NCBI GenBank assembly: GCA_017937505.1
Contig: JAGBDL010000135.1
Coordinates: 1 to 64,000, forward strand
Origin: Clostridia bacterium
GTDB taxonomy: Bacteria; Bacillota; Clostridia; Christensenellales; Aristaeellaceae
Length of the DNA stretch: 64,000 nucleotides
Reading direction: 5' to 3'
This document shows, in pieces, positions 4,756 through 42,693 of the stretch. Numbering within the stretch: the stretch's first letter is position 1; each line of letters opens with the position of its first letter. The notes beneath the pieces were generated by a model. It was not told where the DNA came from, searched no databases, and saw nothing but the letters and a program-made list of their open reading frames with translations. The translations under genes and the position numbers were made by a program.

Positions 4756-5784
4756 ATGAAAAGCAGAAAGACGCTGGCGTATGCGCTGGGCGCGCTAATT
4801 CTTTTTCTGTATCTGTACCGCAGGCGCGGCGCGGTGCTGGGCATTGCGGCGGTGTTTGCCTTTGCGGGCGTGTTCACGCTGCTGCTGGCACCCGTATGCC
4901 GCGCGCTTGAACGCCGCGGCGTGCGTCCGTCGCTGGCGGCAGGCGTTGCGGTGGGTGGGCTGCTTCTGCTGGCGCTGCTCATCGTGTCGGCGTTTGTCCC
5001 ATATCTGGCGACGCGCTCCATCGAGCTGGTTCGCCGCAACGCGCCAACGGTCACGGCGATCATGCAGCGGGCGGGCGAGATGCTGGAGCATGCGGGGCTG
5101 CGCGGCGCGGGCGGGCGGGGCTCCGGCGACATGATCGCCTCTTCGGTGGCCGGCGTGACGGCGTTTGCTGCGCGGGGCGGCATGGCCTTTGCCGCGCAGA
5201 CGGGACGGATTCTGTTTGCGCTGGTGCTTTCGTATTACCTGCTCTGCGAGCGAAAGCGCCTTAGCGGACATCTGCTTCTGTTTGTGCCGCCTGCCTGGCG
5301 CCCGGCAGTGCTCTCCGCGCTGCTGGGGTGCAGGAACGCGGCCATGGGCTATCTGTCCGGCATGCTCAAGACGAGCGCCTTCGTGGGCGCGGCGACCTAC
5401 CTGGGGCTTGTGCTCCTTGGCGTTCCGGACGCGCTGCTTCTGGCGCTGTTCATGGGCATCTTCGAGGTGCTGCCGTATGTGGGCCCCGTGCTGGCGGCGA
5501 TCCCGATCCTGCTGAGCAGCCTGCCGCAGGGCCTGAATCAGACGCTGCTGGCTCTCGCACTGGTGGTGCTGGTGCAGCAGATCGAGGGCAATTTCATCAG
5601 CCCGTACTTCACGGCCTCCAGCACGTCGATTCATCCGCTGGCGGCGCTGGTCAGCGTGTTTGTGCTGGGCAGCCTGATGGGCATTTGGGGCATTCTGCTC
5701 GCCGTGCCGCTGGTGGTAGCGCTGCGGAGCCTGCTCTGGTCGATCCGGCAGGCGCGCGGCCTGGCGATCGCGGGGCAGACCTGA
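4756..5784 (+). CDS. AI-2E family transporter (YrrI/YtvI-like permease)
   Basis: A 342-residue membrane protein with about seven to eight hydrophobic segments and the conserved C-terminal part of the AI-2E/UPF0118 family (GIFEVLPYVGPVLAAIP around residues 235-252, and QIEGNFISPYF near 275-285). Members export or exchange small solutes; autoinducer-2 export is documented for few, so the substrate is open. The start ATG follows GGAGG. In B. subtilis the related yrrI precedes alaS-yrzL-yrrK; here the same order is kept but alaS is absent between this gene and ireB. Confidence 0.85.
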   Translation: MKSRKTLAYALGALILFLYLYRRRGAVLGIAAVFAFAGVFTLLLAPVCRALERRGVRPSLAAGVAVGGLLLLALLIVSAFVPYLATRSIELVRRNAPTVTAIMQRAGEMLEHAGLRGAGGRGSGDMIASSVAGVTAFAARGGMAFAAQTGRILFALVLSYYLLCERKRLSGHLLLFVPPAWRPAVLSALLGCRNAAMGYLSGMLKTSAFVGAATYLGLVLLGVPDALLLALFMGIFEVLPYVGPVLAAIPILLSSLPQGLNQTLLALALVVLVQQIEGNFISPYFTASSTSIHPLAALVSVFVLGSLMGIWGILLAVPLVVALRSLLWSIRQARGLAIAGQT

Positions 5785-5870: not shown

Positions 5871-6131
5871 ATGATCAATTCGGATATGGGGACGCAGCAT
5901 TTCAAGGCCATCAGCGACAATCCGCAGGACGCGCAGACGATCCTGCTGTGCGTGTACCACGCGCTGTCTGCAAAGGGCTACGATCCGATCACGCAGATCG
6001 TGGGCTACCTGATCAGCGGTGATCCGACGTACATTACCAGCTATCAGAACGCCCGCTCGCTGATCTGCCGCATCGACAGGGATGAGCTGCTTGAGGAGCT
6101 TGTGCAGTTCTATCTGTCCAAGAACGTTTGA
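5871..6131 (+). CDS. ireB: IreB family regulatory phosphoprotein (YrzL, DUF965)
   Basis: An 86-residue protein matching the IreB/DUF965 family over its whole length, with the conserved core [20 protein letters not shown] (residues 35-54) and [18 protein letters not shown]. In Enterococcus faecalis IreB is a substrate of the serine/threonine kinase IreK and lowers cephalosporin resistance; elsewhere its role is less clear. GGAAGGGGG precedes ATG 5871. The gene has its own promoter and is 11 bases ahead of ruvX, a neighbourhood conserved across Bacillota (yrzL-yrrK). Confidence 0.93.
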
Positions 6132-6142
6132 GGACGCCGGAG

Positions 6143-6847
6143 ATGAACGAGAGAATTGTCGCGCTGGACGTGGGAGACCGCCGCATCGGCATCGCCGTGA
6201 GCGATCCGCTGGGCGTGACCGCGCAGCCGATTGAGACATACACGCGCATTGGATATGGCCCGGATACGCGCCATATCGCAGAGCTTGCCCGCAGGTATGA
6301 GACGAACAGGATTCTCTGTGGCCTGCCGCGCAACATGGACGGCACGCAGGGCTTTCAGGTGGAGAAGGTTCGGGAGTTTGCCGCAAAGCTGGAGGAATTG
6401 GGACTGGCGGTCGAGTACTACGATGAGCGCATGACCACCATGCTCGCCGAGAACGCGCTGCTGGAGGCGAACATGCGCCGCGAGGACCGCAAGAAGAAGG
6501 TCGACATGGTCGCCGCGGTGGTGATTCTTCAGTCCTATCTCGATGCATGCGCTGCGATGGCGGACGACGGGGAAGACGAAGAGGAAGACGACGACGGCAT
6601 CCTGGAGATGGAGGACGAGGACGGCAACCCGATTCGCTTCTATCTGAGCGCCAGCATCCGCTATGCGGGCGAGGATTATGTGCTGCTGACCTGCGCGGAG
6701 GCGACACAGGATATCGAGCAGGACGAGAGCTTCATCATGCGCTGCACGACGGACGGCGAGGGCAACGCCTGCTACCAGTCCCTGGAGGACGAGGCGCTCA
6801 TCGCGGCGGTCTACGAGGCGTATCTGGCGCAGAGCGAGGAAGCCTGA
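6143..6847 (+). CDS. ruvX: RuvX/YqgF-type nuclease fused to a DUF1292 domain
   Basis: Residues 1 to about 138 are a complete RuvX (YqgF) RNase H-fold domain with ALDVGDRRIGIAVSD near the start, GLPRNMDG, YDERMTT and a KKKVDMVAAVVILQSYL helix. RuvX-type proteins act in Holliday-junction resolution and in 5' maturation of 16S rRNA. After an acidic linker (about 141-151, mostly D/E) the protein continues into a DUF1292-like domain (ILEMEDEDGNPIRFYLSASI, then YVLLTCAE) to residue 234. RuvX proteins are usually about 140 residues, and DUF1292 is normally a separate downstream gene (yrzB), so this is a fusion. Start ATG 6143 was preferred over a TTG 15 bases upstream. Confidence 0.9.
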   Translation: MNERIVALDVGDRRIGIAVSDPLGVTAQPIETYTRIGYGPDTRHIAELARRYETNRILCGLPRNMDGTQGFQVEKVREFAAKLEELGLAVEYYDERMTTMLAENALLEANMRREDRKKKVDMVAAVVILQSYLDACAAMADDGEDEEEDDDGILEMEDEDGNPIRFYLSASIRYAGEDYVLLTCAEATQDIEQDESFIMRCTTDGEGNACYQSLEDEALIAAVYEAYLAQSEEA

Positions 6848-6879: not shown

Positions 6880-7287
6880 ATGACGGGGCCATTTGGAGAA
6901 GACGAGCTCTTTGACGACGAGTGGGTGGAAATCTGCGACATCGAGGGACACCGGATGTCCATGCGCCATCTGGCAACCATGCGTCTGGGGGAAAAGACCT
7001 ATATTCTCCTGGAGGATGGAAGCGAGGAGACGCGCGGCGAAGGCGCGATGATGCTCGTGCGCGAGGATCGGACGGTCGACGGTGCCAAAGAGTATGTGGT
7101 GTCCAGCGATGAGCAGGAGATCGAGCGCGTCATCGGACGCTTTGCCGCCCATCTGTTTGAAATGACCATGCAGGACGACGATATGCCCGGGATGGACGAG
7201 CCCGATATGGAGATGGCGGAGGCCTGCGGCTGTGCGCACCGGCCGGGCGAGTTCTGCTATTGCGATGACCCGGCGTATCTGCAATGA
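6880..7287 (+). CDS. DUF1292-like protein with cysteine-containing tail
   Basis: A 135-residue acidic protein in the yrzB position after ruvX. Residues about 12-85 follow the DUF1292 pattern of an acidic strand, a YILLEDG strand (YILLEDGSEETRG) and a later helix with EIERVIGRFAAHLFEM, more diverged than the domain fused to RuvX. The last 25 residues contain CGCAH and FCYCDD, two CxC pairs that could bind a metal. GAAGGGG precedes the ATG. It lies 32 bases after ruvX without a terminator between, so it is probably part of the same operon. Function unknown. Confidence 0.7.
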   Translation: MTGPFGEDELFDDEWVEICDIEGHRMSMRHLATMRLGEKTYILLEDGSEETRGEGAMMLVREDRTVDGAKEYVVSSDEQEIERVIGRFAAHLFEMTMQDDDMPGMDEPDMEMAEACGCAHRPGEFCYCDDPAYLQ

Positions 7288-7617: not shown

Positions 7618-8652
7618 ATGGATATGCAAGAACAACTGCGAAAAATCCAGGAAGACGCGCAGGCGCAGCTTGCGCAGGTCAGCGACAAGCTGGGGCTTGA
7701 TGCGCTGAAGGTCAAGCTGATGGGCAAGAAGGGCGATCTGACGCTGCTTCGCCGCTCCATGGGCCAGCTCGCGGCGGAGGACCGCCCCAAGGCCGGCCAG
7801 ATGATCAACGAGGTGGTCGCCGCGCTGACCGAGCAGATGGACGCGCTGGACGCCAGGCTCAAAAAGCTCGAGCAGGAGAGAAAGCTCGCGCGCGAGGCGA
7901 TTGACGTGACCGAGCCGCGCAGGCACAGGGCCATCGGCATGCAGCACCCGATTTCGCTGGTGCAGGATCAGATGCTCGGCGTGTTCACCAGTATGGGCTT
8001 TGACGTCGTGGAGGGCCCGGAGGTGGAGTACGATCTGTACAACTTCGAGCTGATGAACATCCCCAAGAACCATCCGGCCCGCGACGCGCAGGATACGTTC
8101 TACATTGAGGACAACGTCGTGCTGCGCACGCACACCTCTCCGGTGCAGGCGCGCACGATGCTCACGCGCAAGCCGCCGATTCGCATCGTCTGCCCGGGCC
8201 GCGTGTACCGCGCGGACGAGGTGGACGCGACGCACTCCCCGGTGTTCCATCAGATGGAGGGCCTGGTCGTTGGCGAGGACGTCACGATGGCCGATCTGAA
8301 GGGCACGCTGGACGCGTTCGCGCAGAAGCTCTTCGGCGACGACATGACCACGCGCTTCCGTCCGTCGTTCTTCCCGTTCACCGAACCGTCCGCTGAGGTG
8401 GATCTCACCTGCGTGGGCTGCCACGGCAAGGGCTGCCGCATCTGCAAGGGCACCGGCTGGATCGAGGTGCTCGGCGCGGGCATGGTCAACCCGAAGGTGC
8501 TGGAGATGTGCGGTATCGACAGCAAGAAGTACAGCGGCTTTGCGTTCGGCGTGGGCCTGGAGCGCATCGCCATGCTGCGCTACGGCATCACGGACATGCG
8601 CGCCCTCTTCGAAGGCGACGTGCGTTTCCTGTCCCAGTTCCGCGACGACTAA
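7618..8652 (+). CDS. pheS: phenylalanyl-tRNA synthetase alpha subunit
   Basis: A 344-residue PheS of normal bacterial length. An N-terminal coiled coil (residues 1-95) binds tRNA; the class II catalytic domain follows with HPISLVQDQM (motif 1 region), RPSFFPFTEPSAEVDL (motif 2/3 area) and the terminal GVGLERIAMLRYGI. PheS and PheT form an (alpha-beta)2 enzyme that charges tRNA-Phe in the cytoplasm. AGGAGGG lies about 11 bases before ATG 7618. The cysteine set CVGCHGKGCRICKG (about 263-276) is a feature of many bacterial PheS proteins. Expression should be governed by the upstream Phe T-box. Confidence 0.97.
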   Translation: MDMQEQLRKIQEDAQAQLAQVSDKLGLDALKVKLMGKKGDLTLLRRSMGQLAAEDRPKAGQMINEVVAALTEQMDALDARLKKLEQERKLAREAIDVTEPRRHRAIGMQHPISLVQDQMLGVFTSMGFDVVEGPEVEYDLYNFELMNIPKNHPARDAQDTFYIEDNVVLRTHTSPVQARTMLTRKPPIRIVCPGRVYRADEVDATHSPVFHQMEGLVVGEDVTMADLKGTLDAFAQKLFGDDMTTRFRPSFFPFTEPSAEVDLTCVGCHGKGCRICKGTGWIEVLGAGMVNPKVLEMCGIDSKKYSGFAFGVGLERIAMLRYGITDMRALFEGDVRFLSQFRDD

Positions 8653-39901: not shown

Positions 39902-40783
39902 ATGCGCATCCGCATCCATCCTGCCTTCGCGCTGTACCTGTTGAGCATGGCTGTGTTTTCGTCCTGGCGGATGACCCTGTGCGCCATGGGCGCGCTGCTG
40001 GTGCACGAGACCGGGCACTATGCGGCCGCCCGGTTGCTTGGCGAGCGGATTGCCAAGGTCGAACTGACGCCGTTTGGCGGCGTGATGACCTGCGCGCCGG
40101 GGAGAAGCCCCAGCAAGGGAATTAGGGGCGTGTGCGTGGCGGCGGCAGGCCCGCTTGGCAACGAACTGGCGCTGCTGGCCGCGTCGGCACCGGCCGTGCA
40201 GCGCATGCTCGGATACGATGGTACGCAGGCGTTCATCATGGCGAATCTGGCCATGATCTGCCTCAACCTGCTGCCGGTGCTGCCGCTGGACGGCGGCAAC
40301 ATCGTCTTCTGCATCGGGTACTATCTCTTTCCCGCGGGGCGCCTTCTCTTGCTGCTGACCGCGTGCGGCATGCTGGCAGGGCTGGTGCTGGTGCTGCTCG
40401 CGCTGTATGGCTTCATTCTGCTGGGAACGCTGAACTGTTCGCTGCTGATGATCGGCGGGTATCTGATGCTCTGCGCCAGACGCAGCAGGGCGGAGGTGCT
40501 GGCGCAGAACCTGTATGCCGTCGTGCAGGAGAGGCAGGAGAGCACGGAGGACATCCGCACAATGCGTTTGTATCGCGTACCGCAGGATACTCGCATTCAT
40601 GCGCTGCTGGAACCAATGGAGCGCACGTCCTGCGCGGCGTTTGTCTTTGAAGATGCGTCGGGCGTCCATGTCGTCGGCGAAAAGGATGTCTGCCGGTTCC
40701 TGCTGGAGGCACCGTCGCTCACGCTGGCGCAGGCATGGGCCGCCAAGCGGAAACCGGGCGGGGAGACGCAGAAAAAATCCTGA
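39902..40783 (+). CDS. spoIVFB: SpoIVFB-like M50 site-2 protease
   Basis: A 293-residue membrane metalloprotease with the zinc motif HETGH (residues 35-39) in the first helices and NLLPVLPLDGG (about 121-131) supplying the third metal ligand. In B. subtilis SpoIVFB cleaves pro-sigma-K in the mother cell once released from SpoIVFA. The C-terminal 80 residues look like a CBS-type domain (RVPQDTRIHALLEPM, VVGEKDVCRFLLE), which in SpoIVFB binds ATP. It directly follows the SpoIVFA-like gene. Confidence 0.9.
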   Translation: MRIRIHPAFALYLLSMAVFSSWRMTLCAMGALLVHETGHYAAARLLGERIAKVELTPFGGVMTCAPGRSPSKGIRGVCVAAAGPLGNELALLAASAPAVQRMLGYDGTQAFIMANLAMICLNLLPVLPLDGGNIVFCIGYYLFPAGRLLLLLTACGMLAGLVLVLLALYGFILLGTLNCSLLMIGGYLMLCARRSRAEVLAQNLYAVVQERQESTEDIRTMRLYRVPQDTRIHALLEPMERTSCAAFVFEDASGVHVVGEKDVCRFLLEAPSLTLAQAWAAKRKPGGETQKKS

Positions 40784-40800
40784 ATCGGCGCGCTTTTTCC

Positions 40801-40829
40801 TTGAAACATCGCGTGCGGTGAGATACAAT
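40801..40829 (+). promoter_or_regulatory. sigma-A type promoter for the DEAD-box helicase
   Basis: TTGAAA (40801-40806), 17-base spacer, TACAAT (40824-40829), 37 bases before the GTG start. Confidence 0.8.
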
Positions 40830-40865
40830 AGGAAGGGCAATAAAAAAGACAGTGAGGATACAATT

Positions 40866-42059
40866 GTGAGCGATACACCGCAAATACAAAAGGAGCATCC
40901 GCTTGTCCGGATGGGCATCAGCGACGAGGTGGTCAGGGCCTTTGACTGGATGGGCTTTACAGAGCTGACCAGTATTCAGGAGAAGTGCATTCCGCTGATG
41001 ATGGATGGCCACGACATCATCGCGATTGCTCCGACCGGAACCGGCAAAACGCTGGGCTTCGGGATCCCGATGCTCGAATATGTCAATCTGGATGATCCCA
41101 GTGTGCAGGAAATCGTGCTGGCGCCGACCCGCGAGCTGGCCCAGCAGATCGCCGACGAGCTGACGAACCTGGCGCACTTTATCAAGGGCGCGAAGATCGC
41201 CGTGATTTACGGCGGCCAGCCGTTTGGCAAGCAGATGAGCGCGCTCTCACGCAAGCCGCAGATTCTGGTCGCGACGCCCGGCCGGCTCCTGGATCACATG
41301 CAGCGCGGCAACATCCGGCTCTCCACCGTGCACACGATGGTGCTCGACGAGGCGGACGAGATGCTCAAGATGGGCTTCATCCAGGACGTGGAGAAGGTCA
41401 TCGAGAGCGCCGATCCCAACCGCCAGCTGGTGATGTTCAGCGCGACGACCAATCAGGACGTGCTGACGGTCTCCTGGAAATACCAGCATGATCCCATCGA
41501 GATCGTCGTGCAGGCGGAGGCGGACAACAAGCCGGATATCACGCAGTACGTCATCGAATCCGATCAGAAGCAGAAGTACGAGCATCTGCTCTACCTGCTG
41601 GATTCCGACCAGTACAAGCGCATGATGATCTTCTGCAACACGAAGGACATGACGGCGCGCCTTTGCGAGCGCCTCAAAAAGGCCGGATACAGCGCGGAAT
41701 GCCTGCACGGCGACGTGCGTCAGTCCCAGCGCGACAAGGTGATGGCGGGCTTCAGAAAGGGCCAGTTTGAAATCCTGGTCGCGACCGACGTCGCTGCCCG
41801 CGGCATCGACGTGGACGACGTGGAGGCTGTCTTCAACTACGACCTGCCGGACAAGCAGGAGTACTACGTGCACCGCATCGGCCGCACGGGCCGCGCCAAG
41901 CGAGCCGGCGTGAGCTTCTCGTTTGTCAGCTTCAGGGACAGCATCCGCATGGACGAGATCCGCAAGTACACCCATGTGGAGCCGATCCAGCTGGTCTTTG
42001 ACGAATTCGGAACGCTGTGCTACAAGGAGAGCGGCGAACCGTTTTTGGAAAACCTTTGA
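40866..42059 (+). CDS. DEAD-box ATP-dependent RNA helicase
   Basis: A 397-residue minimal DEAD-box helicase: Q-motif area (FTELTSIQEKCIP), motif I APTGTGKT, Ia APTRELAQQ, II VLDEADEM, III FSATT (SAT), V DVAARGIDVDDV, and VI HRIGRTGRA. These enzymes unwind short RNA duplexes in ribosome assembly, decay or cold adaptation. There is no long basic C-terminal extension or RNA-binding domain, unlike DbpA or CshA. GTG 40866 with TGAGGA upstream is the start. Its last 40 bases overlap, antisense, the 3' end of a small minus-strand gene. Confidence 0.93.
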   Translation: MSDTPQIQKEHPLVRMGISDEVVRAFDWMGFTELTSIQEKCIPLMMDGHDIIAIAPTGTGKTLGFGIPMLEYVNLDDPSVQEIVLAPTRELAQQIADELTNLAHFIKGAKIAVIYGGQPFGKQMSALSRKPQILVATPGRLLDHMQRGNIRLSTVHTMVLDEADEMLKMGFIQDVEKVIESADPNRQLVMFSATTNQDVLTVSWKYQHDPIEIVVQAEADNKPDITQYVIESDQKQKYEHLLYLLDSDQYKRMMIFCNTKDMTARLCERLKKAGYSAECLHGDVRQSQRDKVMAGFRKGQFEILVATDVAARGIDVDDVEAVFNYDLPDKQEYYVHRIGRTGRAKRAGVSFSFVSFRDSIRMDEIRKYTHVEPIQLVFDEFGTLCYKESGEPFLENL

Positions 42060-42396: not shown

Positions 42397-42693
42397 ATGG
42401 ATGATATGGAAATGATGGAGAACGACAACATCATCGTGCTGACCGACGAAGACGGTGTGGACGTTGAGTTCGAGTTCTGCGCTTCTGTTGAGTACGAAGG
42501 CAATGAATATGTCGTCCTGCTTCCGACCGAGGATGACGACGGCGAAGTTGTGATTCTTCAGGTCATGGAAGACGAAGATGCAGGCGAGGACGACGAGGCG
42601 ACCTACGTCGGCGTGGACGACGAGGATGTGCTGCAGGCCGTGTTTGAGATCTTCAAGGAGCAGGCCGGCGACGAGTTCGACTTCGAAGAGTAA
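42397..42693 (+). CDS. DUF1292 family protein (YrzB-like)
   Basis: A 98-residue very acidic protein matching DUF1292 from end to end: NIIVLTDEDGVDVEFEFCAS, YEGNEYVVLLPTEDDDGEVVILQV, then a terminal helix VDDEDVLQAVFEIFKEQA. Function unknown across Bacillota. In most genomes the family member sits next to ruvX; here it forms a single-gene unit with its own promoter and terminator while two relatives occupy the ruvX locus. GAGGA lies 9 bases before ATG 42397; ATG 42373 is an alternative start. Confidence 0.88.
   Translation: MDDMEMMENDNIIVLTDEDGVDVEFEFCASVEYEGNEYVVLLPTEDDDGEVVILQVMEDEDAGEDDEATYVGVDDEDVLQAVFEIFKEQAGDEFDFEE

Follow-up and report, generated by a model that had tools for sequence, protein, structure and literature searches.

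Recurrent fusion of the putative nuclease RuvX to DUF1292 in Clostridia, with a probable second start site inside the fused frame

The window, by which we mean the whole 64,000-nucleotide stretch analyzed here, is part of contig C81 of a Clostridia genome of 3.1 Mb that was assembled from a metagenome. In a scan of named genomes, its nearest named relatives were uncultured Clostridiales and Candidatus Ventricola (class Clostridia, Eubacteriales incertae sedis). Genes for an AI-2E-type transporter, IreB, a RuvX–DUF1292 fusion protein, a second DUF1292 protein and PheS follow one another on its + strand, which is the order of B. subtilis (yrrI ... yrzL-yrrK-yrzB). The features are listed below.

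4756-5784, + strand: AI-2E-type transporter gene
5871..6131, + strand: ireB, encoding an IreB/ReoM-type regulatory phosphoprotein, upstream operon member (PF06135, E 2e-34; NCBIfam NF003997 over cut-off)
6143..6847, + strand: ruvX-DUF1292 fusion gene, 234 aa, single open frame including the stop (translation and Pfam)
6152..6544, + strand: putative RuvX/YqgF nuclease domain, residues 4-134 (PF03652, TIGR00250, match to 7ess)
6545..6616, + strand: acidic linker, residues 135-158, ACAAMADDGEDEEEDDDGILEMED (sequence)
6617..6823, + strand: fused DUF1292 domain (DUF1292a), residues 159-227 (PF06949; also recovered separately by the whole-genome search)
6880..7287, + strand: DUF1292b, separate tandem gene with its own start and Shine-Dalgarno sequence gaaggggaacacATG and a Cys/His-containing C-terminal tail (PF06949, 31.3 bits)
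7618-8652, + strand: pheS
42448-42660: third DUF1292 gene (profile score 54.8 bits, the highest in the genome)

Translation of the fusion gene gave 234 codons with zero internal stops (6143-6844, + strand), followed by TGA at 6845-6847. The N-terminal part matched PF03652 over the whole domain (139.3 bits, cut-off 29.2, E 1.3e-40) and TIGR00250 (124.8 bits, cut-off 43.25). YqgF has three carboxylates (PMC9601230); the active-site acidic residues Asp9, Glu95 and Asp121 are intact in the window protein, and their equivalents occur in all 90 rows of the RuvX alignment (A2) that span the domain. The structural model of the window protein matched M. tuberculosis RuvX (7ess; Z 18.3, rmsd 2.8 over 132 residues) and B. 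subtilis YrrK (1vhx; Z 15.5), indicating an RNase H-like RuvX fold. By profile, catalytic residues and predicted fold, this part is a putative RuvX/YqgF nuclease, a protein that is essential in many bacteria and has been linked to the processing of 16S rRNA, to RNase activity and to cleavage of branched DNA and RNA (PMC9601230). The window protein shares with known members, which are annotated as putative pre-16S rRNA nucleases, the full-length domain, the catalytic acids, the fold and the place after ireB; those members are single-domain proteins of about 140-170 aa in PDB entries, whereas the window protein adds a C-terminal DUF1292.

DUF1292a is encoded directly downstream of the RuvX domain, in frame with ruvX, and matched PF06949 with 43.7 bits (cut-off 24, E 5e-11); the match to NCBIfam NF010218 was weak (21.9, cut-off 96). 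Like other DUF1292/YrzB domains (PF06949), it scores over the profile cut-off and lies directly behind ruvX, but the domain is usually a separate small protein, while the window copy is joined to RuvX and followed by another, separate copy. The initial annotation had described one continuous frame carrying RuvX, an acidic linker and DUF1292, and the translation and both Pfam matches agree with it: the profile search found DUF1292 within residues 150-234 (PF06949, residues 159-227), and no stop codon was found between the domains in same-genus relatives. A profile search of the genome revealed four DUF1292 copies in all, among them the tandem gene at 6880-7287, which the initial annotation had not listed, and a fourth on contig C154. 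As free genes occur elsewhere (at 42448 and on C154), accompanying RuvX is not the only setting of DUF1292. The third copy (42448-42660) is isolated, downstream of a frame at 40515-42059 that by eye resembles a DEAD-box helicase.

To assess prevalence, 100 genomes were drawn evenly from the window's family, 93 of which gave a match, and 90 RuvX loci were mapped with purpose-built profiles for both domains. The two domains were fused in 49 genomes and adjacent but split in 36, and 5 had no DUF1292 in reach, some of these loci lying at contig ends. Within the window's genus, every genome with a RuvX or fusion match carried the fusion (20/20), counting as fused one genome (G677) whose single open frame came out of the search as two overlapping fragments. 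Scanned singly, each of the 47 fused proteins in alignment A1 matched both Pfam families. DUF1292 adjoins ruvX in most sampled Clostridia; beyond the family, fusions are rare, being found at L124 (family f46), L126 (f34) and L259 (f144), as well as on the named contigs L199 and L231. Pfam confirmed both domains in L259, L199 and L231, and in L124 and L126, which are members of A1. Almost all of these genomes are metagenome-assembled, which would favor a missed stop codon or frameshift, that is, an assembly or annotation artefact. We rejected this explanation and give it practically no weight, since separate assemblies show the open frame again and again, at 61 distinct family loci and in 20 same-genus genomes, with both domains conserved.

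The distribution of fused and split loci was then examined on trees. On a tree of the RuvX domains from 101 loci, the fused and split states must have switched at least 14 times, compared with 32 for shuffled labels; with 143 columns this tree is partly resolved, well-supported branches alone force 4 changes, and gains and losses of fusion are not distinguishable on it. Both states occur within each of genera g26, g38 and g30. A DUF1292 tree, built from other data at the same loci, required 15 changes for the fused label, with fused and split copies interleaved, and placed all DUF1292b copies in one clade apart from the A copies (branch support 85). The single DUF1292b clade and the interleaved labels imply that the tandem duplication is old and that the fusions and separations came later. 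The fused genes are conserved operon neighbors, and their fusion was gained or reversed many times, with at least 14 changes on the RuvX tree together with the further fusions in f46, f34 and f144; the initial annotation had named repeated fusion as support for a functional link. The ruvX–DUF1292a junction is fused in 61/97 family loci. At the control junctions of the same loci, fusions numbered 0/30 for DUF1292a–DUF1292b and 0/84 for ireB–ruvX, the latter being an imperfect control with short gaps (median 8 nt) that are mostly in different phase. Judged from these counts, fusion is specific to the ruvX–DUF1292a junction.

Linkers of the fused genes, such as ...KGVWHM, ...SEVFRIM and ...EKEEPM, resemble former leader sequences, and we investigated whether they retain the DUF1292 start. 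The strength of a Shine-Dalgarno (SD) sequence was taken as the pairing energy with the 16S tail CACCUCCUU. The best linker start per fused gene had a median of -8.3 kcal/mol, compared with -3.3 at in-frame starts within RuvX. As this test took the best start of each linker, a second test used whichever in-frame ATG came first downstream of the RuvX domain, picked blind to the SD. An in-frame linker ATG was present in all 61 fused genes outside the window's genus, and the mean anti-SD energy before the first of these ATGs peaked at -6.0 kcal/mol at normal initiation spacing. The corresponding peaks were -5.8 for starts of separate DUF1292 genes and -4.2 for RuvX starts, and ATGs inside RuvX gave no peak (-1.1 to -1.6 kcal/mol). 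An SD of -5 or better preceded 84% of first linker ATGs, 76% of separate DUF1292 starts, 74% of RuvX starts and 18% of control ATGs.

Synonymous recoding of the seven codons before the first linker ATG gave a null mean of -5.9 kcal/mol, compared with -7.7 for the real codons, which paired better than the null in 45/61 genes (Wilcoxon p 4e-7) and, with one gene per genus, in 32/41 (p 1e-6), single genes being seldom significant and related genera not independent. At 142 control ATGs, real codons and null did not differ (-3.33 and -3.25), and an earlier version of the recoding on the best of all linker starts was almost flat (mean z -0.47). We read the codon choice as favoring the linker start beyond the protein sequence, which would reflect selection, or at least long retention, of the DUF1292 start. 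Most fusions probably make two products, RuvX–DUF1292 and free DUF1292. Since most fused relatives keep the DUF1292 start signal in the linker, the "fusion" there is probably a RuvX extended over an independently translated DUF1292, and a simple Rosetta-Stone reading is weakened, as the cell might just tolerate the long form as a by-product.

In the window gene itself, an SD-preceded internal start before DUF1292a, our mark of a nested in-frame product, was not found: the linker ATG at 6557 has no SD, with an anti-SD energy of +0.3 kcal/mol compared with the median of -8.3 in other fused genes. Of 21 linkers from the window's genus (16 assigned by genome code and 5 named contigs placed by 51-84% identity), 13 have no ATG, and a quarter of the remaining 8 carry an SD. 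These linkers are as acidic as the others, yet lack the SD. Fused DUF1292a domains in this genus also have lower profile scores (39-84 bits, compared with about 100 in most other genera), suggesting a diverging, fast-evolving domain, which fits relaxed constraint as well as specialization. DUF1292b lies directly downstream of the fusion in genomes of the genus wherever the contig allows. With the internal start lost and the separate DUF1292b kept, the fusion looks obligate here, and the free form would come from DUF1292b.

The initial annotation had further proposed that DUF1292 acts physically with RuvX. The AlphaFold model of the fusion showed both domains with confidence (mean pLDDT 94), pTM 0.71 and a linker pLDDT of about 64, but it did not reach a confident orientation of RuvX relative to DUF1292 or a fixed interface. 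DUF1292 alone was predicted to form five strands and a C-terminal helix (pLDDT 84), and its model had no PDB match at E up to 0.001 (best 0.1), which does not by itself establish a new fold. The repeated, junction-specific fusion makes a physical partnership more likely. Besides the fusion, a second tie between the two genes is their conserved adjacency (yrrK-yrzB in B. subtilis). On adjacency, repeated fusion and junction specificity, the best reading is that DUF1292 may serve the RuvX nuclease as an accessory partner. The fusion, its repeated changes of state, its specificity for this junction, and the SD and ATG kept in relatives but lost in the window's genus can be read directly from the sequences; use of the internal start, contact between DUF1292 and RuvX, and a shared action of the two on rRNA or branched nucleic acid are inferred.

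These observations can be brought together in one scenario. The ancestral operon would have been ireB - ruvX - DUF1292a - DUF1292b, and repeated in-frame loss of the ruvX stop codon would have extended RuvX across the entire DUF1292a gene. In most lineages the ribosome-binding site and ATG of DUF1292a would persist in the linker, yielding both tethered RuvX–DUF1292 and the free protein. The internal start would have been erased from the window's genus, so that this gene gives the tethered form only and DUF1292b supplies the free form. If DUF1292 works at or near RuvX, tethering would be tolerated or useful. We consider this explanation as a whole, from repeated stop loss and a retained internal start to its loss in the window's genus and an accessory role for DUF1292, reasonably probable. 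A stronger version, which we hold tentatively, sees a recurrent two-product gene in which a selected internal start sets the ratio of tethered to free DUF1292, the products assemble on rRNA or branched nucleic acid as a single complex, and, in the window's genus, DUF1292b has taken the place of the internal start.

The fusion could instead be nearly neutral: RuvX would tolerate a C-terminal tail, the DUF1292 start would go on working, and the states would drift with little functional meaning. The internal start is kept in nearly all fusions, so free DUF1292 need not disappear. DUF1292 start phases at the split family loci are about even (10/15/11), and a single stop is all that separates the genes in 8 of the 10 in-phase pairs, so that one mutation flips the state; stops are also rare at high G+C (about 58%). 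Given these single stops in several relatives, stop-codon readthrough was considered as the usual route to the fused form, and the evidence points neither way. We regard near-neutrality as rather unlikely, because 63% of the family loci are fused, considerably more than the approximately 1/7 expected (a rough estimate from one-third in phase and a stop-free gap of about 25 codons), because neither neighboring junction is ever fused, ireB–ruvX being an imperfect control, and because the window's genus keeps the fusion in every genome although its internal start is gone. The linker SDs might also be translation pause sites for RuvX folding, or by-products of acidic and lysine-rich linkers, with no free DUF1292 being made. 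The SD is indeed encoded by dipeptides frequent in such linkers (KG, EE and GG), and amino acid sequence alone accounts for the null mean in the recoding test. This account appears improbable: the pairing is strongest at the spacing used for initiation, ahead of an ATG common to all such genes, differing dipeptides and phases spell the same GGAG/GAGG core (KGV, RSV, SEV, REV and GGI before the same Met), codon choice adds to the pairing, and the SD is missing from the linkers of the window's genus, which are just as acidic.

Cas11b, made from an internal in-frame start inside cas8b, is a known case of a two-product gene (PMC11899642). The arrangement proposed for the window's relatives resembles it in that the C-terminal part of one frame would also be made from an internal Met, here with SD and ATG. 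It differs in that the short product would be an ancestral separate gene whose start outlived the fusion, in that use of the start is predicted, and in that the window gene has lost it. RuvX, DUF1292 and internal in-frame starts are each known; the recurrent fused arrangement is uncommon. The literature searched, which covers few subscription journals, held no report of a RuvX–DUF1292 fusion or a retained start, and named DUF1292 in six papers, once in each and never in a title or abstract. Many Bacillota genomes encode DUF1292, to which no function has been assigned, and the repeated, junction-specific fusion makes a role as RuvX partner a first testable hypothesis. A retained internal start is also a warning for Rosetta-Stone inference, since the partner encoded in a fused frame may exist in free form as well, and gene callers will overlook this second product.

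Several sequence motifs were observed around these domains. The C-terminal tail of DUF1292b in the window (7209-7284) is Cys/His-rich, ...EACGCAHRPGEFCYCDDPAYLQ; in most of the window's genus the tail reads CxC-H-PGEFC-C...LQ, and other genera have Cys/His runs such as DCDCGCGHEPHHHDGCDCGCHHEE. Such tails were also seen in L006-L018, L048, L069, L073, L183, L189 and L233-L249. The tail looks like a metal-binding tail, and the Pfam scan returned no family covering it. In a separate Clostridia lineage, a similar Cys/His-rich stretch (CDCGCEEHHH...CDCGC) is instead N-terminal to DUF1292 in L199 and L231, both fused, and in L203, L212 and L218, which are split; in the two fused proteins it sits within the RuvX–DUF1292 linker. 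In the large fused clade (L023, L028, L030, L076 and others), the RuvX domain is followed by a conserved GGW motif (DAGGW), which is absent from the window.
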